Below, piece by piece: positions 1-64,000 of a DNA stretch of 64,000 bases. The DNA comes from Physcomitrium patens (lineage: Eukaryota; Streptophyta; Bryopsida; Funariales; Funariaceae): contig NC_037266.1 in assembly GCF_000002425.4 (NCBI RefSeq), positions 9,958,500 through 10,022,499 on the forward strand, written 5' to 3'. Below the pieces are notes generated by a model. It saw only the letters and a program-made list of their open reading frames with translations. It ran no database searches and was not told where the DNA came from. The translations under genes and the position numbers were made by a program. Numbering within the stretch: the stretch's first letter is position 1; each line of letters begins with the position of its first letter.

Positions 1-1310
1 GATTATTTATTGATCCAAAAAATAATAAGATTTGTTAGATGTCCTTTCTAAACATTCTTATCTTGTACCAAAAGAAAGAAAAATAGCTTTTGTTAACAAA
101 AAAAAAAATCTTAAAGCCAAAGTATTTTCATCTTTAAGCAATAAAATCAACATTGATTATTGATTCAACCTTTGTTGAGTAAATTCAATCAAGTATGTCT
201 TTTGATCCTCTTATTTATAATGTCAAAAATGATTCTTTTAAGTCTTATGATATCTCTAAGTTTAATTTCAAGAATAATCTACTCTATTTTGAAGAACAAA
301 TATATTCTAAAAAAGAAAACATAATTATGTGTTCTTCAAGCTTGTCATAACTTTTCAATAGCTGGACATTTTAAATACAATAAGACTTTAGAGTTAATAT
401 TAAGAGATTTTTGGTAGCTTCAAATATAAAGGTAATTAAAGTCTTTGTACAATCACTTGATATTTGTTCAAGATCAAAAACTCCTCATCATCAATCTTAT
501 GGACTTCTCCAGCCATTACCTATTTTGAAACAATTATAGTTTTTTGTTTCTATGGATTTTATCACAAATCTTCTAGTCTCAAGTTTTTACAATCTTATAT
601 TTGTGATAATAGATTGTTTTACTAAGATGGCACATTTTGTACTATATTCAAAATCTATCACGAGTGAAAAAATGGCTAAACTTTTTTTTGACAACATCTA
701 TTATTATCATAGATTGTTCAAAGATATTATATCAAATAAAAGAACTCAATTTATATCAAGATTTTAGACAATCTTTTTCAAGATTTTAAAAGTGGATATA
801 AAGCTCTCTTTGGCTTTTCATCCTCAAATTGATGGACAAATGGAATGAGTGAATCAAGTTCTACAGCAAAATTTGAGGTATACCATCAACTATCATTAAG
901 ATAATTGAACAATTCTTTTGCTATTGGCAAAGTTTAGGTACAATAATTCATTACATCTTTCTACTCAACAAATACTATTTTTTGTCAATTATGGTTATCA
1001 TCTACAACTTGATACTTTTGACTTTTCAAAAATTGATAATCCTATAACAGAAGATTTGGCAAATTATTTGTCAAAGCTACATGCAATATTAAAGGCATAG
1101 ATAAAGAAAGTTTAAGAATGACAAAAGATGAATGTGGATGCCTATTGCAAAGAACAACCATAATTCACTGTATATAATAAGATATTGCTACTTTGTCATA
1201 ATATCAAGACTATTTATTTTTTGAACAAGTTGGACTATTATAGGCTGGGACTTTTTCTCATTTGTAAACAAATCAATCATGTTGCTTACGGATTACAACT
1301 ATTGGTATTA
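1..1310 (+). mobile_element. Decayed Ty3/gypsy pol fragment (RNase H end, integrase, chromodomain region)
   Basis: This is the 3' part of a retrotransposon polyprotein broken by many stops and frameshifts. The integrase core is readable at about 552-767 (FVIIDCFTKMAHF, then DIISNKRTQF) and 918-1100 (NYGYHLQLDTFDF). Positions 1140-1310 keep a decayed linker and chromodomain start (LLLCHNIKT-like, then NKLDYYRLG-like). The same order and wording occur on the minus strand near 62-64 kb, so it is one family. Many breaks are TGG-to-TAG or CAA-to-TAA type changes, as expected of an old methylated element. No LTR or target-site duplication is visible here, and the element runs off the left edge. The gypsy assignment is secure; the exact limits are not. 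Confidence 0.85.
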
Positions 1311-3240: not shown

Positions 3241-3502
3241 ACAGCCTTACAAAATAAGTAGAAGCTTGAATTTAAGAGGAAGGCGAACAGAAACGCACAC
3301 GAAAGGGAAAGGGAAATCGAAGGCGCGAACGTAAAAGACACCCGGCGCCCCCGTCTCTTTATCTTTAGGGCTCCAGCTTCGTCGTCCCGGTCCCGAGGTG
3401 TGTAGAGGCTCGCCTCGGCACATCTGCCGGTCCTTTTCGCAGCGCCAATTCCAGCTTTCAGACGTCTGTGATTCCAGCTTTGGTCCCCTGCCGGACTTCA
3501 CC

Positions 3503-4919
3503 ATGAAGGAGAGCGATGTGCAGATGATGCTGGCTGCCGACGTGCACCTCGGCACCAAGAACTGCGACTTCCAGATGGAGCGCTACGTCTGGAAGCGCCG
3601 CTCCGATGGTAATTAGGGCTTTTTCCCCCTGTGGCCCGTGTTGGGGTTTGGTTGGGTGCGTGTGCGAGTGTTCGTTTTTTGGTGCGGGGGCGGCGCGGGG
3701 GGTTTGGTGCGGATGGAATTGGTTTGTGAAGGTGGGCGATTGACGAGGGTAGTGGGGTCGTTGTTTTATTCTGTGTGGGCAGGCATTTTCATCATCAACG
3801 TGGGCAAGACCTACGAGAAGCTGGAGCTGGCCGCGAGGGTGATTGCTGCCATCGAGAACCCGCAGGACATCATCGTCCAGTCCGCGAGGCCGTACGGGCA
3901 GCGCGCGGTGCTGAAATTCGCGCAGTACACGGGATGCCAGGCCATCGCGGGGAGGCACACGCCCGGTACGTTTACGAATCAGCTGCAGAACACGTTCAGC
4001 GAGCCCAGGCTGCTGATTTTGACGGACCCCCGCACTGATCACCAGGTGAGTGACTGAGGTGGGAGACGATGGACGGATGGGAGCAGAGGGGGGTTGTTTT
4101 AGGGCTGGAGGGGGTGAGGAATGGATAAGGTGGAGAAGTGGGGCGGTGTGTGACGATGAGTTGTGTTATGTTTGGCAGCCCATCATGGAGGCAGCTCTGG
4201 GGAACATTCCCGTGATCGCGTTCTGTGACACGGACTCTCCGATGAAGTACGTGGATATCGCGATTCCGGCGAACAACAAGGGCAAGCACAGCATCGGTGC
4301 TCTGTTCTGGCTGCTGGCCCGCATGGTGTTGCAGATGCGAGGCACGATCAGCGCCGCGCACCCATGGGACGTGATGGTGAGTGTGGCGATTTGGGAGGTT
4401 TGGGAGGGGGGAGGGGGCATTGCGGGGTGGGAGGGGTTGGGATGTGAATGTGGTGGACGTGGCGGGTAATGCATGGGGGATAGGTTGGGTGGTGTGGGAG
4501 GGCGTATGGGAATTGGGAGGAACGGAGAGCGGGGCTGGGTGATAGTTGGTGGCGAGGGGAGGGGGCTGATTGTGCGAGTTGGGGGGGGGGTCGGGTGTGC
4601 GGTGCAGGTTGACCTGTTCTTCTACAGGGAGCCCGATGAAGGCAAGGACCGCGAGGAAGAGGAGGGAGGAGCAGCTGAGTTCGCCGCAGTTGAATACGCG
4701 GCGCCGACGCTTGCTTTGGGAGGGGATGCCCAGTGGGGTCCCGAGGCCGCTGAGGCCGGGCAATGGGAGACGGACGCAGCAGCTGGTGCGGTGCCCGCAG
4801 GGGCTCCAGCTGGTTGGGACGTGGGAGCCGCTGCTGCGCCAGTTGCTCCCGCAGGTTGGGATCCCGCCGCGCCTGCTGAGGCTCCCGTCGCACTTGCTGG
4901 GTGGGAACCTGCCGCTTAG
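3503..4919 (+). CDS. RPSA: 40S ribosomal protein SA (uS2/p40), copy 1; join 3503-3608, 3783-4045, 4179-4376, 4608-4919
   Basis: This is a cytosolic small-subunit ribosomal protein of the uS2 family, needed for late 40S maturation. Four exons joined at GT-AG sites give 292 residues, close to the roughly 300 of plant homologues. Residues 1-123 hold [19 protein letters not shown] and the [18 protein letters not shown] segment. Residues 152-161 ([10 protein letters not shown]) match the family's conserved peptide-G region. The tail is acidic and Ala/Pro-rich with repeated GW motifs, typical of RPSA. The start has a good context (caccATGa). Introns are 174, 133 and 231 bases. Copies 2 and 3 encode the same protein, except that copy 3 has Pro where this one has Leu in the last repeat (CTT at 4893-4895). 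The gene sits next to AT-rich repeat DNA, so its expression is uncertain. Confidence 0.95.
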
Positions 4920-5160
4920 TTAGAATTTAAGAGAGGGACGGCTCGATTGATGAGATTGTATTTGTGTGAACATGCACTTTGAATCTATATTTTTGCGCAA
5001 ACATGGAGATATGGGAGAGCACGGGCGTGGTTGTGATGTGATGTGGGAGGGGTGTGGTATCGTGAATTGGTGAAAGCGGTCCTTGATGGGGTGGGGCAGT
5101 TGGGACAATGCAATGATTTTTGGAGCACGGTAGGTGGTAGGTGTCAAGGTGTTAAGAGTG
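4920..5160 (+). other. 3' flank/UTR of RPSA copy 1, duplicated in copy 2
   Basis: This is non-coding sequence after the TAG stop, identical in the inverted copy (6737-6977). It has no counterpart after copy 3, where sequence diverges inside the stop codon (TAG here, TAA there). Confidence 0.7.
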
Positions 5161-6736
5161 TAGCTTGTAAAGCCTCCGCCCAAGGAATGGGTTTTAGTTT
5201 GTATATTTTGTATGCTTATTTTGCGTATAAACATTTAGGGCAGGTTTTTATTTTTTCCTTAGAAAATTCAAATTGTCTTGTTCTAATTTGATCTAACATA
5301 GGTGTTAGGTTCTTAAGTGGGTTGGGTATCTCCAACCAATTTAGCATCAAGATATTCTTATTCTTTGTTCAATCTAAATTCTAATTTGACCCAACTTGGG
5401 TATTAGGTTCAGAGGTAGGTCAAGTACGTATGATGTGCCTTCTTTCTAATTGGTCCAAGTGTTCCTACTATTTAAATGTTATTGGTTGGGATCTATTGAT
5501 TAATTAACCTGACCAATTAATAATGATAAACAATTAAGAAAATTAAAAACTTACAAGCTTATGAAAAGAAATATTTTTATAAATAGGATTGCTATTAGAT
5601 CTATTCAAAAATGAAATTCACTGAATATCACTAAGTTATAGAATTGACAATTAGATTATATGAGTCAACAAAGACTCATTGAATTATACAAGCGTTGTGC
5701 TTTAGAAAGACATTACCGAAATTCTTAAATTATAGTATTCTGTAATACTTTTAGTTTACAAAATATTTTAAAATATGCTTTAATATAGTTTTTTGAGTAC
5801 AATAATGATATGTTACACTACACATATTAAAATTTATACAAGCATGTGTCTATTGCTTTAATAGTTGGAGTAATATGGTTTTTATACTAAATGTTTCAGT
5901 AACTATTTGAAAAACTTTATCACCAAATCAGCAATTTATTTGAGAAAAACGACAATCATATTCCATCTTATAGTCTTAACGAAGTAACTAATATTCATAC
6001 ACCATTCTAGATTGTCAAAAGGATCGAAGATCCAATAATACTATAGAATATAATAACGAAGATAGAACAAGTTCCGAGCTGTAGACATCACCAAAATAAA
6101 AAAAACAAAATTTTTAATAGCTATGGCTATTAGGATACAACAGTATTTTCTTTGAGTAAAAATCAAGGTAATCATTCTATCTTAGAAAAAAACATACTAA
6201 AAAACTATGCGTTCATATAAATAAACATATCTATATACATATATATTTCAATTTCATGTAAAATTGTGATCCACTAATTTCGTCTACTACATTATACTTA
6301 AATTATATTTAGATGATGTGGTTGCCTAGTGAAAAGTTTACTTCTTCAATAAATTATTGCCTCAAAAAAAAAGTTAAATGATCGTTCAATTAAAAGATCA
6401 CTTAATTTCAATTTCATTTTTTTTTTGTACATCTATAAATATCTATAAATACACACATATATATATATACACACACACAATGTGCAACTGCACCAACTTC
6501 AAAGATGGCATGCGCCTAAGTTCCATGCATGCACTGGACATTTCGACAGACGCTCACGCATGGTACTCACGTGCCTCGCTTACTCGTTGAAACCTGCTAC
6601 TTCATTGAGTAGAAAGTTGGAGCTTGACAGACACATTTGCAACTTCAGCGCAATGGTCCACACGGACGATACCAACATCAGATCGCGGGCGTACCTTACT
6701 GAAAGAGAATCCCACGTCCTAAACCGACCGAGCTAC
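5161..6736. other. Spacer of the RPSA inverted repeat
   Basis: These 1576 bases separate the two arms. The left end (to about 5260) looks like a continuation of the RPSA 3' region. The middle is AT-rich with no convincing gene. About 6480-6736 has higher GC but no recognised product. A short (TA)n/(CA)n stretch lies near 6455-6480. Confidence 0.6.
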
Positions 6737-6977
6737 CACTCTTAACACCTTGACACCTACCACCTACCGTGCTCCAAAAATCATTGCATTGTCCCAACTG
6801 CCCCACCCCATCAAGGACCGCTTTCACCAATTCACGATACCACACCCCTCCCACATCACATCACAACCACGCCCGTGCTCTCCCATATCTCCATGTTTGC
6901 GCAAAAATATAGATTCAAAGTGCATGTTCACACAAATACAATCTCATCAATCGAGCCGTCCCTCTCTTAAATTCTAA

Positions 6978-8394
6978 CTAAGCGGCAGGTTCCCACCCAG
7001 CAAGTGCGACGGGAGCCTCAGCAGGCGCGGCGGGATCCCAACCTGCGGGAGCAACTGGCGCAGCAGCGGCTCCCACGTCCCAACCAGCTGGAGCCCCTGC
7101 GGGCACCGCACCAGCTGCTGCGTCCGTCTCCCATTGCCCGGCCTCAGCGGCCTCGGGACCCCACTGGGCATCCCCTCCCAAAGCAAGCGTCGGCGCCGCG
7201 TATTCAACTGCGGCGAACTCAGCTGCTCCTCCCTCCTCTTCCTCGCGGTCCTTGCCTTCATCGGGCTCCCTGTAGAAGAACAGGTCAACCTGCACCGCAC
7301 ACCCGACCCCCCCCCCAACTCGCACAATCAGCCCCCTCCCCTCGCCACCAACTATCACCCAGCCCCGCTCTCCGTTCCTCCCAATTCCCATACGCCCTCC
7401 CACACCACCCAACCTATCCCCCATGCATTACCCGCCACGTCCACCACATTCACATCCCAACCCCTCCCACCCCGCAATGCCCCCTCCCCCCTCCCAAACC
7501 TCCCAAATCGCCACACTCACCATCACGTCCCATGGGTGCGCGGCGCTGATCGTGCCTCGCATCTGCAACACCATGCGGGCCAGCAGCCAGAACAGAGCAC
7601 CGATGCTGTGCTTGCCCTTGTTGTTCGCCGGAATCGCGATATCCACGTACTTCATCGGAGAGTCCGTGTCACAGAACGCGATCACGGGAATGTTCCCCAG
7701 AGCTGCCTCCATGATGGGCTGCCAAACATAACACAACTCATCGTCACACACCGCCCCACTTCTCCACCTTATCCATTCCTCACCCCCTCCAGCCCTAAAA
7801 CAACCCCCCTCTGCTCCCATCCGTCCATCGTCTCCCACCTCAGTCACTCACCTGGTGATCAGTGCGGGGGTCCGTCAAAATCAGCAGCCTGGGCTCGCTG
7901 AACGTGTTCTGCAGCTGATTCGTAAACGTACCGGGCGTGTGCCTCCCCGCGATGGCCTGGCATCCCGTGTACTGCGCGAATTTCAGCACCGCGCGCTGCC
8001 CGTACGGCCTCGCGGACTGGACGATGATGTCCTGCGGGTTCTCGATGGCAGCAATCACCCTCGCGGCCAGCTCCAGCTTCTCGTAGGTCTTGCCCACGTT
8101 GATGATGAAAATGCCTGCCCACACAGAATAAAACAACGACCCCACTACCCTCGTCAATCGCCCACCTTCACAAACCAATTCCATCCGCACCAAACCCCCC
8201 GCGCCGCCCCCGCACCAAAAAACGAACACTCGCACACGCACCCAACCAAACCCCAACACGGGCCACAGGGGGAAAAAGCCCTAATTACCATCGGAGCGGC
8301 GCTTCCAGACGTAGCGCTCCATCTGGAAGTCGCAGTTCTTGGTGCCGAGGTGCACGTCGGCAGCCAGCATCATCTGCACATCGCTCTCCTTCAT
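6978..8394 (-). CDS. RPSA: 40S ribosomal protein SA (uS2/p40), copy 2; join on minus strand 8289-8394, 7852-8114, 7521-7718, 6978-7289
   Basis: This encodes the same 292-residue protein as copy 1, with the same four exons and introns in mirror order. Start codon 8392-8394, stop 6978-6980. The coding sequence and introns match copy 1 base for base as far as I could compare, including a ten-base G run in intron 3 (C run on the plus strand). The Leu codon in the last GW repeat is shared with copy 1, so copies 1 and 2 are closer to each other than to copy 3. Upstream (8628-9720) is balanced-GC, non-repetitive DNA, unlike the repeat in front of copy 1. Copy 2 may therefore be the arm that kept its native promoter; that is inference. 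Confidence 0.95.
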
Positions 8395-8606
8395 GGTGAA
8401 GTCCGGCAGGGGACCAAAGCTGGAATCACAGACGTCTGAAAGCTGGAATTGGCGCTGCGAAAAGGACCGGCAGATGTGCCGAGGCGAGCCTCTACACACC
8501 TCGGGACCGGGACGACGAAGCTGGAGCCCTAAAGATAAAGAGACGGGGGCGCCGGGTGTCTTTTACGTTCGCGCCTTCGATTTCCCCTTCCCTTTCGTGT
8601 GCGTTT
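8395..8606 (-). promoter_or_regulatory. 5' leader of RPSA copy 2 (shared with copy 1)
   Basis: This GC-rich leader is identical in the left arm (3291-3502). It carries TTTAGGGCTCC in gene orientation, a weak relative of the telo-box of plant ribosomal-protein genes. It also carries CTTTTCGCAGCGCCAATTCC, which resembles the leader of copy 3 (CTTTTCGCAGCTGCAATTCC). The leaders are thus homologous but diverged, unlike the coding regions. Confidence 0.5.
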
Positions 8607-8627
8607 TTGTTGACCTTCCTTCCAAGT

Positions 8628-9172
8628 TGCAGTCTGTCGGGACGTCGTGCTGATGAGGGTGGGTCTTCGTCGCTGTTTGCCTCGGGTGGTTGGTGTTCTT
8701 CTTTTCTTCGTGTTGGATGGAAGAGGCTTCTTCTTTCCTCACAGTGCCTTGCCATCCTCATGCGCTCGGCCTTTGTCCTATGACTTTCTTCCCTTCGTTG
8801 CTGGTTGGGTTTTAGATTATTCGCTCAACTGTTTCTGTTTCTTTTTCTTCTCTCTTTCCCTCTCCCACTGGTCATGTGGGTGTGTTCTTCGAAGTCTCTT
8901 CCTTTCTTTGTTACATTTTGGTTTTGTTGTTTTTTTATCTTGTGTATTTTTACGATGCAGGCTCGCATGGCGAGTTGCAATGTGAGGCTAGGCTTTTAAC
9001 AGCACTTTTGACGGACTAAAATTGATCACGAGTTTTCCTGTTGAAATGCTTGAATTTTTGGGGGACGTCAGCGAACAATTTCGTTGTTTTTTCCTTTCTT
9101 TCTGGCTTCAATCAGCAGATCTTAACATGTCAAGAGTCATTACAGGCCTTGTGGAGGGAAAGGAGATTACAC

Positions 9173-9207
<35 letters not shown>

Positions 9208-9730
9208 TATAATGGGCAATTGTTCTACTAAGTGGTAGGCAACGATCAACAGAACCTAAACTGCGCCCACATTTTTTGCAAGAAGCGGACGAGCAAGCAG
9301 AGTAACAACAAGACAGCGGTTGGAAGTTGAACTTGTGTTTCCTTGAAAACACATTTGTGTGGAAATAGTGATTGTTTGATTATTTGGAAGCATTTCAACA
9401 AGCTCTATTGATCAAGTTGTACCATGTACAGTTTCTTTGAACCTCTGGTCGGGGATTTCATGCCCAACTGAACGTGGCTCTGAAGTTGTAAGGGCTTTGG
9501 AGAAGAAATAAAAGATCAGTTGAAAGATTAAGAACCAGCTTCTTGGCAAGATTGTATGGTTGGCATGAGGGAGATTTGTTTCCATCGAAGGCTTTTGAAG
9601 CGTGTGCAAGAACTTCGGGAAGAGACGGAGTGGTACAATAATGAGAGTGTGAAGAGAGAAGATAGTGCCATAATTTGCAATACAAAGTCGACATGATGGA
9701 GGAGGAACAAACAAAAGATTGCAAATAATT
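8628..9730. other. Upstream region of RPSA copy 2
   Basis: Balanced-GC sequence with pyrimidine-rich stretches on the plus strand and a T run of about 24 at 9176-9204. I see no recognisable coding region; short open frames here lack any family features. It probably holds the promoter and possibly an upstream leader exon of copy 2. Confidence 0.4.
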
Positions 9731-10947
9731 TGGATGAGGAGTTTGAATTTATAGGATGACGTGATTATTGAAATATTATTTCACCAATATAGTTTAATAT
9801 ACATATTAATTACACTTAGTAATTAATATTACTAAGTGTGAGTGTTATGAAAAAATATGTAGTTGATTGTCATTTGTGAATATGGTAAAAAATGAAACTG
9901 ATAGTTTTACTTATTATGTTTTACAAGTTAAAATTAAAAATACTATAAGTTAATCATGTAGTCATTAAAATTTGATGTTAAATATTTTTAGTTTATGAAT
10001 TAACAAAATATGTAAGATATGAAAATATTATATGGTGGTTATCAAGTTTAGTTTATGAATGAAGTTTTTGTTCTTAGAATATCAAATAGATGTATTGTTA
10101 TTAGAGCTTCAAGGACTTCATGCATGCACAAGACAATACTTTGTAAAAACCACTACCAATGACACACACTTATTCTATAAATGACCTTGTTTATTACCAA
10201 AAAATTGGAATCACATGGCTTCTAGTCCAATTCTACTCCTCCTGGAGGTTCTATAATCTTGTACCACTATACTCAGTTTGCTAATTCTTGATTATACGTT
10301 GTGGTATTTCTTTGGCACCACCTTTGTTTTGTAGTTGTAATAATAGTGTTGTTCTTATCTTCCTACTTGTTATGCTACAAGTTTTAGTTGACCTCATGTT
10401 GTTTTAAACTATTTATAAATATCACTTATTATAAGAATTAAATTATTAAATTATTATGTTTAGTTTTTATTTATTATGTTTTTCAAGTAATAGATTCTAC
10501 AATATTATTTTTTGAACCAACTATGTAGCACCATTCTTAAAAGTTACTTTTAATTGACAATATTTTTAATTATTATTTAGTGTATATAAATTTTAATTAA
10601 TATTAGATTTTTATAAAATTATATTATTAGATCATATTTATGACCTAAAATTTGATTGCCAACTTTAATATTTCTTACATTTGATAAAAATTAGTTGTAG
10701 ATAGAATTGTTGAGATTAAATAAAATAAAATATTAAATATGTATATTAACCTATATATTTTTAAGAAAGTTAATTGTGTTTTTTTAAAAGTATAAATGAA
10801 TCATTACTACAATCCATAGAGTAATGTCTAAATTATGTTAATTTTTTTAAAAGTGAAATATTATAAATTTTATAAAAATATAATAAGTATAAAAAATTGA
10901 TATTTATTTATTTATTTATTTAACTTTAGATTTATTGCTAATTTTAT

Positions 10948-10987
<40 letters not shown>

Positions 10988-11774
10988 TGTACCTATGTCT
11001 TTAAAACAATGCATGCTATTTTGTAGTATCAAATTAATTTGATCAAAATTGGATTATATTTTTGCTTGATTTTACTTTTTAACAAGCTTTATATTATTTT
11101 TATTCTTAAAATTAATTTTATTTGATATTTAAAAGTATGTTGGATATAATACTAGTGTATGTCTTCTTTATATTAGAATCTAACCAAGTTTATCAAAATA
11201 GATCACCAACCTTATGTTTTAGCACAAAACTTAATATCTTATGTCAAATTGTGACTTAAGATGGATCCAAAAAATAATTTGATGCCAAAAGAATTTTCAC
11301 TCTTGTCCAATTATGAAAACTTAAGATAAATCCTTTGTTTCTTTGAATATCCAAGATAGTATCATGGATCTAAATCATAAGCTATATGAATTTATTGTTT
11401 TCTAAATCATAAAATCGACTTTTTTTTTGGAAAATGAATTAATTTGCACACAGTATTATTTTCATACAAGTTGATTAATAATTACTAAAGAATAGTATAG
11501 TAAAATCTAAAATCATCTATTATCTTTTTTAAAAAATAATTTTTAAATGAAGATATTTGAGATATTTTAAACTTGTTACAAGCTTTATTTATGTATCTTA
11601 GGTACCCAACATAAGCCAAAATGCATATCAATAATAGAAAAGCCATTCCTTATAAGAATTATTTTCAATACATCATATGCTATTTTAGAACATCTAAGTT
11701 TAGGCATATATCTTTCTTCTTAATTGTGCAAAAATATAATATAGTACTTATAATTAAGTCAAAATCTTTACTAA

Positions 11775-11812
<38 letters not shown>

Positions 11813-13230
11813 TAAATTTTTATTTCTGTATTGTAAGTTAAATCACCTCAAACACTACTCCTAGATTTTAAATAACTTTCTTTTGATTTAGAAAATTTAA
11901 GTAAGGGAAAAAATTACATAATACCTACTCTCAAGTTTTTGAAGAGTGGATTCTATATGAATCAAGCTACAATTGGATTTATTTTGATTAGAAAGATTTT
12001 AAAACCACCAGTACAATTACTCATTATCTCCAAAACATTACAAATTTAAGCCACTTGTGAATATTTAGTGACGAGAAATAAAAGTATCACATCAATTTAT
12101 CAATACATTGGTCTAAATATGGCATCAAAAGAACACACTATGTCACACAAAAATTAAACAATTAAAAACTGCTGCATTATACAACACATGTGATCCCTTG
12201 TTGCAAATCTTTATTCTCTTTGATTGTATTTTTGTTTTTAAATTTTGGAAATATTTGTCGTTTTAATTGAAATGGAGAGTGCATTATGATTAAGGTATAA
12301 CATAAGATAGCTAATGCACTAAATAATAATGTTGTTTATTTTTACAAAAATAATGTAACAAAAAGAATTTTGTTTATTTTTACACTATTATAATATATCA
12401 TTTATAATTGATAATTTAAGGATTTACTATATGTATGGAGACACACATTAATACATATCTATACAAGACTGTGAAACTTTGTCAAAAACTGTAAAAATTC
12501 AAGTTGGCATCTCAAATAATTGGAGGTTATAAGTGTCTCCAAAAAATATTTAAATGCTGGAGGCTGTTATCTACATTGCCAACAAAAGTACTTAAATGCC
12601 ACATATGGCTTTAAAATAAATACATTGAAACGAATAACAACAGAGATATCCAAACTGATTCTTAACAGTTTATTTAATTTTATTTAAATGGTTTCTGAAT
12701 TAAATGAAAATATTTTTTAAATATTTCTAGGACAATCAACGTTTTATGGAAGTTAAATCTATTTCATAATAACCTCTTACAAGTCATTGCAATAAAAATT
12801 TAATGATGGATGAAAAATATGTATACATTTCTTACATAGAAAATATAAAAATGTACTTTGAATACATAGATAAAGCTATGAAGTTTCTTGGTTCTTATTA
12901 TGCTGAGCTATAATTTATTATTATTATTATTATTATATATAATGATTACATGTAGAACATTTTTATTAGGATGCAAATCAAACAAAATATCCTATAAATT
13001 AATAGATATACATGTTTTCATCAGTTAATCGTCCTGTAATAACTCATCAATTACAATGTTCAAAGACTAACAATTCTGGAATTTTCCTTCACTGTTCTAT
13101 ACTTTTTCCTCGTGATTAGACACACTCTTAACAAACCATGCTTTTGCATGCTGAATTTTACTTCACGGAAAGAGAATGTTTTCTGTTGTCATTGTTGTAA
13201 GCACTGCTGCTATTGTTATTACTATTGCCA
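9731..13230. other. AT-rich intergenic DNA, no gene seen
   Basis: Strongly AT-rich, with (TA)n at 10950-10981 and 11781-11807 and a (TTA)n patch near 12914-12935. No readable protein or structured repeat was found; it is probably decayed transposon sequence. Confidence 0.6.
10950..10981. repeat. (TA)n microsatellite
   Basis: About 16 uninterrupted AT units. Similar runs at 24734-24772, 25259-25295, 34146-34173, 46710-46736, 47302-47338 and 48094-48127 make this the dominant simple repeat of the AT-rich compartment. Confidence 0.9.
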
Positions 13231-13865
13231 CTCATCCATTTAATATTCACATTTTGTTTAGTATCATGACCAAAACATCACATAACAGCGTTCTTCGATG
13301 TGCTTCTACCATAATTTTATAAACGTGACAACGAAGCATGCAAAATCTTCAGCATTTCAAATTATCTTTAACCGAAGAGCTTTGAATCTAATCAGCATCC
13401 ACTTGGTTACGGTAGCGGGTCATTTTACAATTCTTGTAATTACAAAACAAAAGTGGTCGATGCAACCTCACATTCGTATTGTGAAGTGTATGATCTGTCT
13501 GTAATATTAGGAACTGTGGACTTAAACTACAAGCTGAAGCTGTTGTATGTATCAACACCGAAACCCCGAGTTTCAACAATTTCTCAAACTTTAAACTTCA
13601 GTAAGAACTTGAAAAATCTACAAATTGGGTTACACAATGTTCAAGACCTAATTTTTTCCAGTTGATACGATAGGACGAAAGCTCCTTCAACTATCATCCG
13701 AGAGAAGCGGATGAATTGACGACGATGGGATTAGGGTTTCATTGTTGCGGAGGTGGAGAGCGTTGAAGATCCAGAGCAGGATGAAGAGTCTCTCCCTTTT
13801 CGCAGCTGCAATTCCAGCCCCTGCAGCTCTGCAATTTCCTGGCTGCGTTTTATCAGCGAGACACC
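13231..13865 (+). promoter_or_regulatory. Promoter and 5' leader of RPSA copy 3, with telo-box
   Basis: A TTAGGGTTT telo-box lies at 13731-13739, 127 bases before the start codon. This element is common in promoters of plant ribosomal-protein and translation genes. Downstream, CTTTTCGCAGCTGCAATTCC (about 13797-13816) matches the leader of copies 1 and 2 with two differences. Further similarity is lost until CACCATG. The functional role is inferred from family knowledge. Confidence 0.55.
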
Positions 13866-15282
13866 ATGAAGGAGAGCGATGTGCAGATGATGCTGGCTGC
13901 CGACGTGCACCTCGGCACCAAGAACTGCGACTTCCAGATGGAGCGCTACGTCTGGAAGCGCCGCTCCGATGGTAATTAGGGCTTTTTCCCCCTGTGGCCC
14001 GTGTTGGGGTTTGGTTGGGTGCGTGTGCGAGTGTTCGTTTTTTGGTGCGGGGGCGGCGCGGGGGGTTTGGTGCGGATGGAATTGGTTTGTGAAGGTGGGC
14101 GATTGACGAGGGTAGTGGGGTCGTTGTTTTATTCTGTGTGGGCAGGCATTTTCATCATCAACGTGGGCAAGACCTACGAGAAGCTGGAGCTGGCCGCGAG
14201 GGTGATTGCTGCCATCGAGAACCCGCAGGACATCATCGTCCAGTCCGCGAGGCCGTACGGGCAGCGCGCGGTGCTGAAATTCGCGCAGTACACGGGATGC
14301 CAGGCCATCGCGGGGAGGCACACGCCCGGTACGTTTACGAATCAGCTGCAGAACACGTTCAGCGAGCCCAGGCTGCTGATTTTGACGGACCCCCGCACTG
14401 ATCACCAGGTGAGTGACTGAGGTGGGAGACGATGGACGGATGGGAGCAGAGGGGGGTTGTTTTAGGGCTGGAGGGGGTGAGGAATGGATAAGGTGGAGAA
14501 GTGGGGCGGTGTGTGACGATGAGTTGTGTTATGTTTGGCAGCCCATCATGGAGGCAGCTCTGGGGAACATTCCCGTGATCGCGTTCTGTGACACGGACTC
14601 TCCGATGAAGTACGTGGATATCGCGATTCCGGCGAACAACAAGGGCAAGCACAGCATCGGTGCTCTGTTCTGGCTGCTGGCCCGCATGGTGTTGCAGATG
14701 CGAGGCACGATCAGCGCCGCGCACCCATGGGACGTGATGGTGAGTGTGGCGATTTGGGAGGTTTGGGAGGGGGGAGGGGGCATTGCGGGGTGGGAGGGGT
14801 TGGGATGTGAATGTGGTGGACGTGGCGGGTAATGCATGGGGGATAGGTTGGATGGTGTGGGAGGGCGTATGGGAATTGGGAGGAACGGAGAGCGGGGCTG
14901 GGTGATAGTTGGTGGCGAGGGGAGGGGGCTGATTGTGCGAGTTGGGGGGGGGGTCGGGTGTGCGGTGCAGGTTGACCTGTTCTTCTACAGGGAGCCCGAT
15001 GAAGGCAAGGACCGTGAGGAAGAGGAGGGAGGAGCAGCTGAGTTCGCCGCAGTTGAATACGCGGCGCCGACGCTTGCTTTGGGAGGGGATGCCCAGTGGG
15101 GTCCCGAGGCCGCTGAGGCCGGGCAATGGGAGACGGACGCAGCAGCTGGTGCGGTGCCCGCAGGGGCTCCAGCTGGTTGGGACGTGGGAGCCGCTGCTGC
15201 GCCAGTTGCTCCCGCAGGTTGGGATCCCGCCGCGCCTGCTGAGGCTCCCGTCGCACCCGCTGGGTGGGAACCTGCCGCTTAA
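13866..15282 (+). CDS. RPSA: 40S ribosomal protein SA (uS2/p40), copy 3; join 13866-13971, 14146-14408, 14542-14739, 14971-15282
   Basis: This is a complete four-exon RPSA gene of 292 residues, offset exactly 10363 bases from copy 1 with no indels. By eye there are only four base differences from copy 1 between start and stop: G/A in intron 3 (14852), a silent C/T in exon 4 (15015), and CCC against CTT (15256-15258), which makes the last repeat APAGW rather than ALAGW. The stop is TAA. Flanks differ: identity starts at CACCATG and ends inside the stop codon. The telo-box promoter makes this a good candidate for an active copy. The protein is an uS2-family subunit of the 40S ribosome, as for copy 1. 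Confidence 0.95.
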
Positions 15283-17186: not shown

Positions 17187-19960
17187 CTAAACCATTTCTG
17201 CTACACTATCAGCAGGTGAGGTTGTGTTGCTCACCCACACATCTTGCACAGAGGTAGGGGATGCTGGGCACCCACCGTTTTTGTTTAGAAGAGGCTTTGC
17301 GGAGTCTTTGTTATCGAGGGAAGGCTCCATTCCTGAAGATCTTCTAAAACCAATAGCTTGTATTCGCAGTAAATCTGTTAGCACTTCTTTCATAGACGGT
17401 CGATCATCTTTCTCAGATGCTAGACAACGAAAAGCAAGCTCAGCAACTTGCTCAACCATAACTTGCGCCATAGGATAATCATAGAACAAAACAGTCAAGT
17501 CTGGATCCAGGATCTCGTGTAAACACCCGGATTGAATTTTAGCCACAGCTAGAGATGCTAGGTTGATTTCCTTGCGCTCCCGGGTCATATCCACCGCTTT
17601 CTTGGCAGTCACGAGCTCCATCAACACTACTCCAAAACTATAGACATCACTCTTGTCAGAAAGGACATAAGACTCGTGATAATCTGGGTCAAGATAACCA
17701 GGGGTACCTTGTGGTGCGGTGGAGATATGGGTATTTTCCGTGTTCACAACCAACCTCGAAAGACCAAAATCAGCAATTTTAGCCTTGAAGTCCTGATCAA
17801 GGAGGATATTAGTTGTCTTCACATCTCTATGAAAGATAGGCGGGTCTACTAAAAAGTGAAGATAAGCAAGTGCTTCTGCTGTCTGTACAGCAATCTCTAA
17901 CCTTGTCTTCCAAGGTAACGGTGCCTTGCACCCGGCATGGAGATGGTTTGAAATTGACCCGTTTGGTACATACTCATAAACAAGAAGGGGCCGCTCCATA
18001 CAACAACCAAGTAACTGAACCAAGTGCGGATGTCGCACTTTAGAGAGAACATCAACTTCATTGTGAAATTGTTGTATGCCTTGATTTCCACCTTGATTGA
18101 GCTTCTTCACAGCAACCAATCTTCCATCCGAGAGTTTTCCTTTATACACCGTCCCGAAACCTCCCCCTCCCAGTTCATGCTTCGTACTGAAACTTTGTGT
18201 GGCATGATCAAGCTCCTTGTAGGTAAAAAGTGTTGTGAGATGGCCTGAGCCACTCGATCGAATCTTAGCAAACTCTTTCTTGTCACCACCATCATACTTC
18301 ATCAAATCACTCGGGCCGCGCCGTGACAGTCGGCAACAGTACAGTAGGGCGATTAGGAAGATTAAGACTGCTGCTGTAAACCCAGCAACAATACCTGCCA
18401 ACCTCTCACCCAGTATGCATAGCTAGATGAGCAATGAAAACAAAGAAAATACTGCTCAGGAGCCATTTTGGCAATATAACAAACTGGCTCGAAATGAAGT
18501 GGAAAATTTAGACTGCTAAAAATCAACTCTACATGATAGCTTTGCTCGAGAGCCAATCCAAAGCCCCCAACAAGGCGTACCAAGTTTGCCAGCATTCAAC
18601 ATGGTTTAGGATGCTCCCAGAAGTTGAAAGTACGTTCAATACCCACCAAGGATGATATACAGGTTCCGTCTCATCATATCTGCTGAAGGTGTAGCTTCAG
18701 GTGATGCCGCTGGCTGTGGTGAAGGAGATGTATCGAGGGTTGATATATCTGCCAATCGCACACGAGAGCATCACAAATCAATTATTGATGCAATCAACGA
18801 CACATTCTCAGAGGCGTGCAAATCTTACAGTCTCTGCGATAAAATAAGATTGAGCCACTAACACAGACTCCAGACTGAGTTCACGAACAGAACCTCAATC
18901 AGGATACCCCCCTACTGTTGTCCAAGCACCAATCAGGAGTCTAAAACAAAAATAAAAATTTTAAAACTTTTTTACAAAAAACGAAATAGGCAACAGAAAG
19001 CAATTCGCTGCACTGTAATAACAGTGATGATAACCACAGGAAGTTGAAACAAGACCAAACAGTCAATCTCCCAAGACCATGCTACCAATGTGGCACAAAT
19101 TCCGCCTTGCTAGAGTATGGATCTAGGACTGCAGTCTGAGATCCATGACAAACTGAACACGTTCCGAAATGTGATCAACCTGAAAAAAGAAGCTATCACT
19201 TGCAGCAACTTTAAATGACTACAATTTTGAGTGCTGGTCATCAGTACATTCTATCAAAAACAATAATCCCGACAACAGAAAGCAATTCGTAAAAACAGAA
19301 AATTGAAAGAGCTTCTGATTTAATGAACGTACTTTTTACTTCGAATTGAAGCTCCACGGTAACAGTCTTGTTTTGACCGCTTAGGAGTTCGGTCGGGGCT
19401 CTCTCAAACAGGTGGCACTGATTGTAACGCGAATCGGCGAAATTCAGATACCTCATCGGGCAAGCCCACCGATTTGCACCTCCCTGGGAACTCACACCCG
19501 TACCATTGCGATTACAGATATCGTCGTAGTTAACAATCGTGTCTAGGGAGGTGCAGTCTTCTTGTATACGGACTCCGCAGTCCAGAAGTAGTGTGGTGGT
19601 ATTTGTGATGGTCAGGGTTCCAAATATATTACTCGTAAAGTCAGAACATATTGCATTATTTCCATATGGTACTATTGAAAGAATCTGGTTCTTATAATCT
19701 ATGTTCTGAACCTCGTACGTGAAAGTGGGAGAGGCGCTCAAGTTAAGGTATAACTTCCGATACAAGCACTGAAATCCGAGATCGGGGTACTCTGTAACAC
19801 ACTGTCCAAGGGCATAGTTTTGCAAGGAAAATGGGTACCTGACCTCCGTTTCGCCACATTTCGGTTTACAAGTATTATTTGGAGATGCCGCATGGCATAC
19901 CCTGATCATAATATGCATGATGACTAAAGCACACGCGGACTTCACGGCAAACGTAGCCAT
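17187..19960 (-). CDS. Receptor-like kinase with GUB_WAK ectodomain (LRK10L/WAK-like); join on minus strand 19333-19960, 18647-18748, 17187-18394
   Basis: This is a plasma-membrane receptor Ser/Thr kinase, probably binding cell-wall pectin or another apoplastic ligand. The three exons fit in phase and give 645 residues. Residues 1-24 are a signal peptide. A Cys-rich GUB_WAK_bind domain follows (CGETEVRYPFSLQ near residue 35) with several N-glycosylation sites. Next come a Pro/Ser/Ala-rich juxtamembrane exon (SPSPQPAASPEATPSAD), a membrane span at about 240-263 and a full kinase domain. Kinase motifs: glycine loop GGGGFGTV (319-326), VAVKK with Lys340, HRDVKTTN (432-439, an RD kinase), DFG (452-454), GTPGYLDPDY and DVYSFG. 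The combination fits the LRK10L-2/WAK-like subfamily. All catalytic residues are present, so it should be active. Reading on past the exon 1 donor reaches a stop, so splicing is required. Confidence 0.9.
18395..18646 (-). other. Intron 2 of the receptor kinase gene
   Basis: Donor CTTG|GTGGGT and acceptor TTGGCAG|GT join a split Gly codon just inside the membrane span. Intron 1 is 18749-19332 (donor A|GTACGT, acceptor TTGGCAG|AT). Confidence 0.8.
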
Positions 19961-52433: not shown

Positions 52434-52563
52434 TAACAACCGTCACTCGGCTGAAGACGAAGAGTTGTGACTTAGGATGCATAGCATATGAATCAACATA
52501 ACAACCGTCACTCGGCTGAAGACGAAGAGTTGTGACTTAGGATGCATAGCATATGAATCAACA
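52434..52563 (+). repeat. Tandem duplication of a 65-base unit
   Basis: The unit TAACAACCGTCACTCGGCTG...GAATCAACA occurs twice back to back (52434-52498 and 52499-52563) with no differences seen. Confidence 0.9.
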
Positions 52564-52734
52564 AGGATCACTATAACTACGTGTGAATGTTGCCTAGAAT
52601 GAGAGTTGTGAACCTTGTGTCGAAGTGTTGTGACTCAGGATGCACAGCATATGAATCAACAAGGATCACTTTAACTACGTGTGAATGTTGCCTGGGATGA
52701 GGGTTGTGAACCTTGTGTAGCACATGCTGTGCTT
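52564..52734 (+). repeat. Partial tandem duplication, 98-base period
   Basis: AGGATCACTATAACTACGTG at 52564 recurs as AGGATCACTTTAACTACGTG at 52662. The 98-base unit itself ends in a diverged copy of the 65-base unit's end (TTGTGACTCAGGATGCACAG), so the block is a nested or higher-order repeat. Confidence 0.8.
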
Positions 52735-53343: not shown

Positions 53344-54685
53344 CTAAAGGGCTGCATCCAGTCGAGGGTAATACGAGAACCAGGAATACATTGGGTGGAG
53401 GTCATGGGAGACGCAGGAATTAACCCATTGCCATGAATTGTCGGCACAATCAAAGATCACAATTAACCGGGGGGTTTTGCGATTGCTCAAGAAGATTCGA
53501 TCGCCGTGACCAACGCAGTTGAACGACAAGAGGCTGGAGTTGTTGAGGAGATCCCTGAACAACCCCTCAGGCATGTTCTGCACCACCACCCAGTCCCGCG
53601 TTGGAGGCTGCAGCTCCCACACACATATACCCTCCGTTACGAAGTGCGGCCTCCTGAAATGACAACTGCATATAGTTCATGGTTTGATAGATGGCCATAC
53701 AGTACCAAAAGAAGCTCACCTCTACAACAAATTTCTAAACGGAGTGGGCGAGCAGGCAACCGAATTCACTCGACTGGTGTGAATTAGGGTTTAGGATTTG
53801 CGGGCTTTGTTACCTCCCAAAGCCTCCAACCATGAGAAGGCGCTCCTGGCATTCCACCACATGAGGGCAAGTCATGAAATCCGGGATCGGCACATGCACT
53901 TTGCTCCACGTTCCCTGCTCGAGGTTGTAAGCGTAAACTCCATAAACGCCACTGCGAGTTTCCCAGGTCATGAAGTACAGCACACCTTTGCAATAGGCAT
54001 ATCCTGTGGTGATCCCGTCCTCGAGGCCGTTGGTGCAAATCCACAGGTTGGTTGTGGAGTCGTAGACCTCGGTGCGCAACACGGCGCCATTGCTGTTCAC
54101 GGAGGCTAGGTTACTCCGCACTATGATTTTGTATGCACAAGTCTGTTTGTCAATGACCAGACCAAGGAGGCCATCGCGCCAGCCGCCGAGCATGGGAGGC
54201 AGCTTCCGCCAAGAGCTAGTGACGGGGTTGCAAACGCATACACTAGAACCCCCATTTGCTTCGTGGAGCCGGAACACAAGCAATCCACCTGCGACTGTCA
54301 CGTCAGAGATGTCAAATGGGAGGAACGAGAGCGGAATATTGTGCCATTTGTTCTGCGTGGGGATGTAAGCGGAGACAACTCTATACCCCCGATCAGCGAA
54401 AATCAGGATCCAGGCGTCCTTCGATGAAGGCGTTAGCGCGTACAGTTCCACGAATCCTCGGGTGTGGGTAATGATGTTCCATGTCCGGCACACCGCTCGC
54501 AACCGAAAGATGCTCGACAAAGGCAACCAGGCCAGCACTCTGTCCACTAAATCTTCAGGGAAGAAACTCCATAGCTGAGGATCCATGACGACTTCTTGGC
54601 AACATGTTGTTGGAGCCGAGTCTTGCTCCACTGAGATGGAATCTGATTCCAAGCATTTCCGCGCCTTGTTCTGCTGGGCGTCCAT
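53344..54685 (-). CDS. F-box/kelch-type protein; join on minus strand 53814-54685, 53344-53653
   Basis: This is the substrate adaptor of an SCF-type ubiquitin ligase. Two exons join in phase (GGGAG|GTAACA donor, ATTTCAG acceptor) to give 393 residues. The F-box lies at about residues 38-80 (FFPEDLVDRVLAWLPLSSIF, then RAVCRTWN). The rest is a C-terminal kelch/galactose-oxidase-like region. It shows WxxLPPM and LLMVGGFG blades in exon 1, then VWELQPPTRDW, CVGHGDRIFLS and VIFDCADNSWQWV in exon 2, as in many plant F-box/kelch proteins. Without splicing, the exon 1 frame hits a stop just after GGFGR. The 160-base intron holds an AAACCCTAAT telo-box-like string near 53783-53792 on the minus strand. 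The gene is divergent from the IBA57-like gene. The substrate is unknown. Confidence 0.88.
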
Positions 54686-61303: not shown

Positions 61304-64000
61304 TTACCTCCCCCTTCTAGGGACGAGTTCCACGAAGAGTGGTAATCATATGTTGAGAAAATCTATGATGCGATAAATTATATTCGCCACATACTCTGAT
61401 CTTTGTTCTCTTCGAAGATGATTGATAAGGCCTCTCAACCATCGATAGTGCCCCATACCAGGGCGGGAAGACCACCCAGTTATTTGATCATTGTTGAGGC
61501 CTTCATAACTTCTTTCGAATAAAATATTTGGAACACCATCAGGAATTGTTTCTACCTCTAGTAAAATCACCAAAAATCGAGAGTCCCTTCTAAGGTCGTG
61601 ATACCAAACGCGTTGTATCTCGCCATCTATTCGAAGAAGAATATATCGTTCTTGAAGATCTTCATCTCGATTGCGTCATCTTGGAGGTTGTGACAATCAT
61701 AATGTCTTGTCTAGCAGATTAACAAACGAAGGCTCTTGAGTCAAATCCGCTCGTTGTTGGTTCTCTATTTCCTGAGAGTCACAACTACAAAGAAGCTACA
61801 AACAAGGATTGAAAGTAGAATGTTATCTTGCCTAGATCTTGTTTCTTATAGAAGGAAGATTTTCATCTTGATTTTAATGGATGTCGTCAATGAAAAGCCT
61901 CCACCACCTTTGCTGCATTTACAAGATTCTTTATTAGCTCCCATATACATTCACTAATATCATATCTATGCCAATTCTAATTTATTTTGGCGTCGCCTTA
62001 AATCTAAGACTTCTTCCACTTCAAACTCTTCATTATTGTCTACTTCTATAGGAAGAGGTGGAGCTTGACTTCTTCTTGGTATGTCCACTATCGTGTATGG
62101 TTCAAGAAAAGACACGTGGAATACTAGATGGATTTTCATTGACTTCGATAGATGTAAACGATATGCAACTCGATTAATTTGTGCAAAAATAGAAAATGGT
62201 CCAAGCCTTTGATAGTCTAACTTATTACAAAGATGAGTGGTCTTGATATTGCAACAAAGTAACTATACCTTATCACCCATGTGGAATGGTGGTTGTTCCT
62301 TTCGATAGACATCGACATTGATCTTTTATTGTTCTTGAGCTTCTTTTAACTACGCCTTTATCGTTGCATGTAGCTCTGACAAATGAATTGTAAAATCTTT
62401 TGCAGCAGGATTATCAACTTTTAAAAAGTCAAAAGTATCAAGTCGTGGATGATAACCATAATTAGCAAAGAAAGGTATTTTTTTTGTAGAAGAATGTACT
62501 GTGTCATTGTAAGCAAACTCTGCCAATGGCAAAAGAGTTGTCCAATCATCTTGTTGGTAGTTAATGGTACATCTTAAATACTGCTCTAAAATTTGATTAA
62601 CACGCTTCATTTGTCCATCAGTTTGAGGATGGAATGTCGAAGATAGTTTTATATCCACTTTTAGAATCTTGAAAAGAGTCTGCCAAAATCTTGATACAAA
62701 TTGAGTTCCCCTATTTGATATAATATCCTTCGAAAATCCATGATAGCGATAGATATTGTCAAAAAAGATCTTAGCTGTTTCTTCACCTGTGATAGATTTT
62801 GTACATGGTACAAAATGTGCCATCTTGATAAAACGATCTACTATCATGAATACAGAGTCATAAGAACCTGAGATTGGAGTTTCGTGATGAAATCCATAGA
62901 AATAGAAGACCATAATTGTTTTGGAATGGGTAATGGCTGAAGAAGTCCATAAGATCGATGACGAGGAGTTTTTGATCTTGAGCAAATATTATAAGATTAT
63001 ACAAAATCTTTAACTACTTTCCACATTTGTTGCCACCAAAAGTCCCTGGATATTAGTTCCAAAGTTTTATTGTACCCAAAATGTCATGCTGCTGAAAAGT
63101 CATGACGAGCTTGAAGAACACGTAATCGAGCTTCACCTTCTGGAACATGTAGGCATCCTTCAAAATATAGTAGATTCTTCTTGAATTCAAACTTGGAAGT
63201 ATCATGAGACTTTGAAGGATTTATCTTCATATCACAAATAAGAGGATCAGAAGACATACTTGACTGAACTTGCTTAATGAAAGTTGAAACAACAGTTAGT
63301 ATTGATTTCATTGCTCAAAAATGAAGATGCTCTGGCTTTAAGAGAATTATCTATTGTTGATCAAAAGTAGCATCTCCTTCTTTTGGTGCGAGATAAGATC
63401 ATCTAGAGAGTGCATTTGACAAACCTTTTTATTTTCCTAGTCGATAAGTGATCTTGAATTCGAATCTTGACAAAGACATACTCCAACGGGCTTGGCGACG
63501 ATTCAAAACACGAGCTGATATAAAATATTCAAGATTCTTGTAATCCATATATACTGTGACTGAGCTAAAAGTACCTTTTAGATAATAGTGCCATTCTTGA
63601 AACGAATCCATGATTGCAAGAAGTTCTTTGTAGTGGATCTCGTAGTTGATTTTGGCTACTAATAATTTTTTCGAATGAAAAGCTATTGGGTGAAGTTTAT
63701 CATCTATTCTCATTTGTGACAATAGGACACCCAAAACAAAGTCTGTTGCGTCTGTTTCTATAAAAAATGGCATAAAAAAATCGACACGATACAAGATTAG
63801 TGTAGAAACAAAGGCTATCTTCAAAGCTTCAAATGCTACTTCTACTTCTTAATTCCATTGAAGTTTGCCTTTGCAAGTCAAACATGTAAGTGGAGCTGCA
63901 ACTTGAGAGAAGTCTTTGATGAAGATCTGATAGTAGTTGGCAAATCTCAAAAAGCATTGGACATCTCTTACCATTTTTGGGATCTTCCAATGTATAATAG
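61304..64000 (-). mobile_element. Ty3/gypsy chromovirus pol, partial and broken (runs off window)
   Basis: Read on the minus strand from the window edge: a reverse-transcriptase end and RNase H (63824-63429, FFIETDATDFVLGVLLSQM and YLKGTFSSVTVYMDYKNLEY); the integrase zinc-binding region (63190-63080, HVPEGEARLRVLQARHDF); the integrase core (62985-62350, [36 protein letters not shown]); and a linker and chromodomain-like end (62300-61960, RLHLSKSMKIHLVFHVSFLE). The order RT-RNaseH-IN-chromodomain defines Ty3/gypsy chromoviruses. Stops and frameshifts (for example between 63084 and 62985) break the polyprotein. It is less decayed and less AT-rich than the copies at 1-1.3 and 24-28 kb. Confidence 0.9.
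62350..62985 (-). pseudogene. Retrotransposon integrase core, longest open piece
   Basis: A 211-codon open piece covers the DDE integrase core. The first Asp lies in FMIVDRF and a second in the DIISNRGTQF segment, which usually reads SDRG but here has Asn. It continues through TFHPQTDGQ with NQILEQYLR, where the catalytic Glu is expected. The N-terminal part is frameshifted, and the Asp-to-Asn change at the second catalytic position alone predicts an inactive enzyme. Confidence 0.8.

Follow-up and report, generated by a model that had tools for sequence, protein, structure and literature searches.

Likely ectopic gene conversion of an RPSA gene body, introns included, with edges at the start and stop codons in Physcomitrium patens

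In yeast, gene conversion makes duplicated ribosomal protein genes evolve in concert (Gao and Innan 2004; Evangelisti and Conant 2010; cited in PMC4700949 and PMC4679983), and conversion among yeast histones and ribosomal proteins is described in PMC4700949. We analysed three closely similar RPSA genes in a 64,000-nucleotide stretch of the moss Physcomitrium patens (contig NC_037266.1, here C14:9958500-10022499; hereafter the window). Like the yeast duplicates, these are ribosomal protein paralogues apparently kept alike by ectopic conversion. Unlike them, the moss genes have near-identical introns, whereas in yeast pairs both the introns and the untranslated regions have for the most part diverged (PMC5755908).

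Other systems share parts of this pattern. Leishmania beta-tubulin resembles RPSA in that coding regions are homogenised between loci while flanks and untranslated regions stay distinct, and ectopic conversion was proposed. The cited portion of that account (PMC1533823) deals with coding versus flanking regions; carried-along introns and edges at codons are features of the moss genes. In plants, the relevant section on RPL9 (PMC4679983) describes linked ribosomal protein genes with an identical stretch taken as recent conversion. Unlike in RPSA, the identical stretch in A. lyrata RPL9 (-167 to +245) crosses the start codon, and the section reports introns without significant identity. Tandem genes of Physcomitrella resemble one another so closely that concerted evolution through conversion was suggested (Lang et al. 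2008, cited in PMC3045890); that passage concerns similarity, and tract edges with a recipient identified by its duplication partner belong to the RPSA case. Conversion is also discussed in connection with intron loss, in a passage of PMC3729371.

The process is already known; clean edges with introns, a likely recipient and recurrence in other families make RPSA a useful variant of it. Our search of literature titles and abstract openings found no report on conversion edges at start and stop codons in this moss, and most subscription journals lay outside its scope, so that absence is not proven. We consider it probable that the third RPSA copy of the window is an old gene, at the whole-genome-duplication partner position of the RPSA gene on chromosome 17 (C17), whose body was lately replaced from the other two copies by ectopic conversion with edges set by the limit of homology. 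RPSA is a clean natural case, in which likely donor, likely recipient and both edges of the converted zone can be read in one genome.

Identity of the RPSA gene bodies and its edges

The three RPSA genes lie within the first 16 kb of the window, and each has four exons and 292 codons (Table 1). The translation of copy 1 has no internal stop and contains a Ribosomal_S2 match. The original prediction held that copies 1 and 3 differ at only four bases, with no indels, introns included. Base-by-base comparison confirmed this: copies 1 and 3 differed at 4 of 1420 positions with 0 indels (ungapped, 3499-4918 vs 13862-15281). The differences were at 4489 (G/A, intron 3), 4652 (C/T, exon 4), and 4894 and 4895 (TT/CC, exon 4); the initial 990 bp of the zone had none. 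We observed a single difference in 538 intron positions (0/174, 0/133 and 1/231), and synonymous divergence (dS) was 0 over the first 200 codons. Copies 2 and 3 also showed four differences across the same interval (self-comparison).

The identity of copies 1 and 3 began at CACCATG and ended within the stop codon, which is TAG in copy 1 (4917-4919) and TAA in copy 3. In the adjoining 60 positions, compared without gaps, 32 differed upstream and 46 downstream. The sequence outside had been described as unrelated or, in the leader, as diverged homologues. The 3' part of this description stood: no 3' homology between copies 1 and 3 was found, the 3'-flank score being reached by 9/200, 52/200 and 30/200 shuffles. 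Homology of the leaders had weak support, a single short block with a score of 21.5 that shuffles reached in 1/200 (300 bp), 0/200 (100 bp) and 1/200 (third test).

These observations separate copies 1 and 3 from several known classes of duplicate. Copy 3 retains all three introns, where a retroposed copy has none. A segmental duplication is identical through both flanks; this was seen for copies 1 and 2 over their arms and was absent for copies 1 and 3. In yeast-type pairs, introns and untranslated regions are divergent, and here the untranslated flanks were divergent and the introns were not. As in ectopic conversion, the tract was far more alike than both of its sides, and unselected sites were homogenised too.

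Copies 1 and 2 form an inverted repeat with arms of ~1.89 kb (1890 aligned bp) and a spacer of ~1.57 kb (self-comparison). Their 1850 identical bp begin 192 bp upstream of the ATG and end 241 bp downstream of the stop. The claim that the near-identity of all three copies is bounded by start and stop therefore holds for pairs 1-3 and 2-3 and fails for pair 1-2. We observed 0/1850 differences inside the arms vs 4/34 at their outer end (Fisher P = 9e-8, with the split picked after the alignment was seen). As expected for palindrome-arm conversion, the arms appear more alike than their age allows, and they look homogenised as well, across a zone passing both codons.

At window 6731-6740, copy 2 lacks ~270 bp of 3' flank that is present in copy 4, a further RPSA gene described below, and copy 1 runs on with copy 4 for ~27 bp beyond the arm end. 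Hence copy 1 did not arise simply by recent duplication of copy 2 in its present form. At 4894-4895, copies 1 and 2 carry an adjacent CC to TT change, which turns a proline into a leucine near the C-terminus; copies 3 and 4 and the C17 gene have CC. Adjacent CC to TT doublets are of the type made by UV light.

Other RPSA loci and the likely direction of the proposed transfer

When the arm was used as a DNA query against the assembly, at least six RPSA loci were matched (genome-wide searches covered 470.4 Mb in 101 contigs). Copy 4, at C14:11310720-11312598, lies 1.34 Mb away and is 93% identical over nearly the full arm. Diverged RPSA copies were also matched on C17 and on C1, and C18 yielded a fragment of 76 bases. 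The match between copies 2 and 4 started ~665 bp upstream of the ATG and continued past the 3' flank, and their divergence showed no step at the codons. They differed by 19/188 in the leader (10.1%), 16/164 in intron 1 (9.8%), 1/131 in intron 2 (0.8%), 12/222 in intron 3 (5.4%), 11/241 in the 3' flank (4.6%) and 0.5 to 2.7% in exons, the exon and intron counts carrying an uncertainty of one or two bases at either border. Altogether, 74 of 1242 silent and noncoding sites differed. The match of copy 3 to copy 4 was limited to the body, with the same edges as against copy 1.

Copy 4 shows that, where putatively unconverted, the introns of this family accumulate differences about as fast as its flanks do, intron 2 excepted. 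The near-identical introns of copies 1 and 3 are therefore not due to low mutation. The complete identity of introns 1 and 2 between copies 1 and 3 would be expected if a low mutation rate, or selection, held gene bodies and their introns identical. This is contradicted by copy 4, whose introns 1 and 3 differ from those of copy 2 at nearly the level of the flanks; in addition, the introns of the cluster gave no match to the C17 introns by BLAST. We give this explanation practically no credence. The original prediction had named recent gene conversion or exchange as the likely cause, and the copy 4 comparison supports it, with a likely direction into copy 3.

Copy 3 has a neighbourhood of its own. 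The kinase gene downstream of copy 3 and its partner downstream of the C17 RPSA gene are in the same order and the same orientation, and dS between the two kinases was 0.546 over 403 codons. The leader of copy 3 aligned best with the C17 leader (z 7.0, vs 4.9 with copy 4, 4.1 with C1 and 3.7 with copy 1). When the 250-bp 3' flanks of five genes were compared, none aligned except copy 1 with copy 4. Because copy 3 has kept a collinear neighbourhood and a leader of its own, it is the likely recipient, and the sequence comparisons are best explained if the gene is a long-standing one whose body is young. Had an RPSA body been inserted or duplicated into a site previously lacking such a gene, the sharp ends of the shared zone on both sides would be accounted for. 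We find this origin highly unlikely, since the site is collinear with C17, orientation included, and its leader is nearest to that of the C17 gene; an mRNA copy would lack introns and would bring its leader along.

Over the first 200 codons, dS of the RPSA body against C17 was 0.464 for copies 1 to 3 and 0.477 for copy 4, and copies 1 to 3 differed from copy 4 by 0.079. Values of 0.46-0.48 for all four bodies, near the 0.55 of the kinase pair, would be expected if all four descend from the copy 3 locus, with copy 3 as donor and copies 1 and 2 as recipients. A body taken over from copy 3 would be expected to show a step at the codons in the comparison with copy 4, provided that copy 4 itself had escaped conversion; between copies 2 and 4, however, leader, introns and 3' flank have all diverged to broadly the same degree. 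We regard copy 3 as donor as very unlikely. The copy 4 and C17 comparisons, made within one genome, favour copies 1 and 2 as the likely donor and copy 3 as the likely recipient. Three changes in 1420 bp since the transfer, vs 74/1242 between copies 2 and 4, place the transfer far later than the split of copy 4.

At 4652, copy 3 stands alone, and at 4894-4895 the TT of copies 1 and 2 stands alone. C17 and copy 1 have in common ACCATG and the next 32 bases, so if copy 3 was once C17-like, the tract could have begun at any point from ~5 bp upstream of the A of the ATG to ~36 bp downstream of it. The 3' edge is defined to within a few bases, because C17 and copy 1 differ within the final six bases ahead of the stop.

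Between copy 4 and the cluster, the longest stretch of silent and noncoding sites free of differences spans 4075-4226 (118 sites; reached in 165/5000 permutations). This, together with the low divergence of intron 2, is no more than suggestive of a possible exchange between copy 4 and the cluster over 1.34 Mb, and the account below makes no use of it.

Edges in other gene families and the proposed homology limit

We searched the families RPS3a, RPL4, RPS6, RPL3, RPS4, LHC and RPL15 for equal-score matches on one chromosome. The 11 pairs fetched, together with RPSA 1/3 and RPSA 1/2, gave 13 near-identical linked pairs, in the families RPSA, RPS3a, RPL3, RPS6 and LHC. RPL4, RPS4 and RPL15 had no equal-score matches of different genes on one chromosome; unequal-score pairs were not aligned in this search, so slightly different proteins could escape it. 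Equal-score chlorophyll-binding (LHC) genes formed 12 clusters, on C2, C3, C4 (two), C5, C12, C14, C16, C20, C23, C26 and C27, each with at least one oppositely oriented pair in the match table. One LHC pair was taken from each of 8 of the 12 clusters, chosen by intron content and spacing and not at random.

The 5' edge was resolved in 6 of 13 pairs, and in 4 of these 6 it was no more than 21 bp away from the start codon: 4 bp upstream of the ATG in RPSA 1/3, 5 bp in RPS3a, 12 bp in LHC C12 and 21 bp in RPL3. In LHC C27 it lay 12 bp before an exon start at an intron-exon junction (by eye), and in RPSA 1/2 192 bp before the ATG. The other seven pairs (RPS6 and LHC C20, C4, C23, C14, C5 and C26) had no 5' edge within the compared stretch. 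The 3' edge was resolved in 7 of 13 pairs. Three of the seven were at the stop or an exon end: within the stop codon in RPSA 1/3, 3 bp past the stop in RPL3, and ~6 bases into the next intron in RPS3a (by eye). The others were past the stop by 139 bp in LHC C27, 175 bp in LHC C26, 241 bp in RPSA 1/2 and ~291 bp in LHC C12.

Five of the eight LHC pairs, on C20, C4 (20.2 Mb), C23, C14 and C5, were identical across the entire compared stretch, and the C26 pair was 97.5% identical from the start of its stretch to its 3' edge. The RPS6 pair (C15:16804400-16807100 and 16853917-16856617; 49.5 kb apart) had one base different over 1964 bp. Its identity reaches ~660 bp upstream, to the start of the compared stretch, and ends downstream at a run of N. 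This pair is either a recent duplication or a duplicated assembly; a third RPS6 copy on C15 (16469592) was left out of the comparison.

Near-identical linked copies are difficult to assemble, the RPS6 pair of this assembly ends at a run of N, and collapse, gap filling or polishing could have put one RPSA body into a second locus. We judge such an artefact very improbable at RPSA. Copy 3 has two private bases (14852 and 15015) and lacks the TT of copies 1 and 2, the window is without any N, and exon-end edges recur in three other families, where an assembler has no reason to respect them.

The position of 5 of the 6 resolved 5' edges, at most 21 bp from a start codon or, in one pair, 12 bp ahead of an intron-exon junction, would also fit tract ends that are set actively by some feature of gene starts (chromatin or transcription, for example) instead of by the loss of homology. 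However, identity crosses the codons where flanks match (copies 1/2, RPS6, and LHC C20, C4, C23, C14 and C5), and the 3' edge of RPS3a and the 5' edge of LHC C27 are at internal exon junctions, which loss of homology explains better than a signal at the start codon would. An actively set edge is, in our estimate, highly improbable.

We simulated homology-limited conversion with a simple model and parameters of our own choosing. Two paralogues with the RPSA layout were mutated and converted, and conversion was permitted only with at most 2 differences in the 25 bp outside each tract end. Exon selection was modelled as two of three exon positions fixed, with 120 runs at each of four rates of conversion. 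With exon selection, 3, 12, 18 and 2 of 120 runs had both edges of the near-identical zone no more than 10 bp from the coding ends; without it, the count was 0/120 at each rate. Within 40 bp, the counts were 19, 34, 47 and 6 of 120 with selection vs 2, 4, 2 and 0 without. An earlier simulation used two tract lengths. With either length, introns less than 5% divergent with both near flanks more than 30% divergent arose at the middle rate in 10/30 runs, and at the lower and the higher rate in 0/30. In these models, the edge pattern arises only within a band of conversion rates.

These data make the following account probable. The whole body of copy 3, four exons and three introns, would have been replaced fairly recently with sequence of copies 1 and 2 by ectopic, non-reciprocal gene conversion, in a single event or several. 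The edges would lie at the start and stop codons because conversion requires a sequence match at both tract ends; leaders and 3' flanks, being unselected, would have drifted apart, and the coding ends would have been kept alike by selection on the protein. Introns would be transferred too, having convertible exons on either side. Conversion would likewise act between the arms of copies 1 and 2, over a wider zone because their flanks still match. The original prediction had suggested that tract ends reflect leader and 3' divergence that blocks conversion. We infer the same cause from its fit to the other families and the simulation. What was observed directly is the pattern of identity, the comparisons with copy 4 and C17, and the collinear site; the conversion, its direction and a homology limit at the edges are deduced from these.

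Five points weigh against this account. First, more than half of the resolved 3' edges (4/7) sit 139 to 291 bp beyond the stop. Second, intron 2 is an oddly low exception among the noncoding regions of copies 2 and 4. Third, exon 4 is 77% identical to that of C17; a C17-like tail of copy 3 would offer poor 3' homology, so that one tract reaching the stop is not easily explained and several rounds are assumed. Fourth, copies 1, 2 and 4 have a different base from copy 3 at 4489, and the aligned C17 base in a six-sequence alignment equals that of copy 3; the base may have survived from the earlier copy 3, although this intron aligns unreliably to C17. Fifth, coincidence of both edges with the coding ends was a minority outcome of the simulation, at best 18/120 runs.

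The suggested rule is that a homogenised zone extends as far as retained homology allows, which is often to the edge of a coding region or exon. Were this rule general, dating paralogues by introns or synonymous sites would mislead in this genome, and promoters could diverge while the protein stays fixed. A broader reading, in which conversion in this moss repeatedly homogenises whole coding units with their introns and stops at exon edges, leaving promoters and untranslated regions free while linked housekeeping genes have a protein and a set of introns in common, with ends maybe set by a gene-start feature, seems to us unlikely.

Annotated features and other observations

Table 1. Positions of the RPSA genes, their shared zones and the neighbouring kinase reading frame in the window
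Feature	Position	Strand	Details
RPSA copy 1	3503..4919	+	exons 3503-3608, 3783-4045, 4179-4376, 4608-4919; 292 codons and stop TAG; splice sites from sequence
RPSA copy 2	6978..8394	-	inverted; body equal to copy 1 body; 0 differences over 3311-5160
RPSA copy 3	13866..15282	+	stop TAA; likely conversion recipient; 4 differences from copy 1 in 13862-15281
Near-identical zone	13862..15281	+	common to copy 1 (3499-4918) and copy 2 (6979-8398); self-comparison, base by base
Copy 1/2 inverted repeat, left arm	3277..5165	+	3311-5160 identical to other arm; 4 differences in outer 34 bp (3277-3310)
Copy 1/2 inverted repeat, right arm	6731..8620	-	self-comparison and base-by-base comparison
Protein kinase open reading frame, 404 aa, downstream of copy 3	17187..18401	-	Pfam PF07714, 3.1e-48; partner downstream of C17 RPSA gene

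The two ends of the window (19-1302 and 62148-63435) carry an inverted pair of ~1.3 kb with 77% identity, probably the remains of a retroelement; an open reading frame at 62350-62985 had a weak integrase match, below the cut-off. Short head-to-tail repeats lie at 52434-52718, with an identical 65 bp pair and a 98 bp pair at 93%. Two further reading frames matched GUB_WAK_bind (19241-19960, 5.8e-11) and F-box (53810-54685, 9.6e-8).

Outside the window, an open S2 gene of 243 codons lies on a contig of nuclear size (C7:3189869-3190513). It scored almost as high as the S2 gene on the 112.5 kb contig C101 and is perhaps a recent insertion of organelle DNA.

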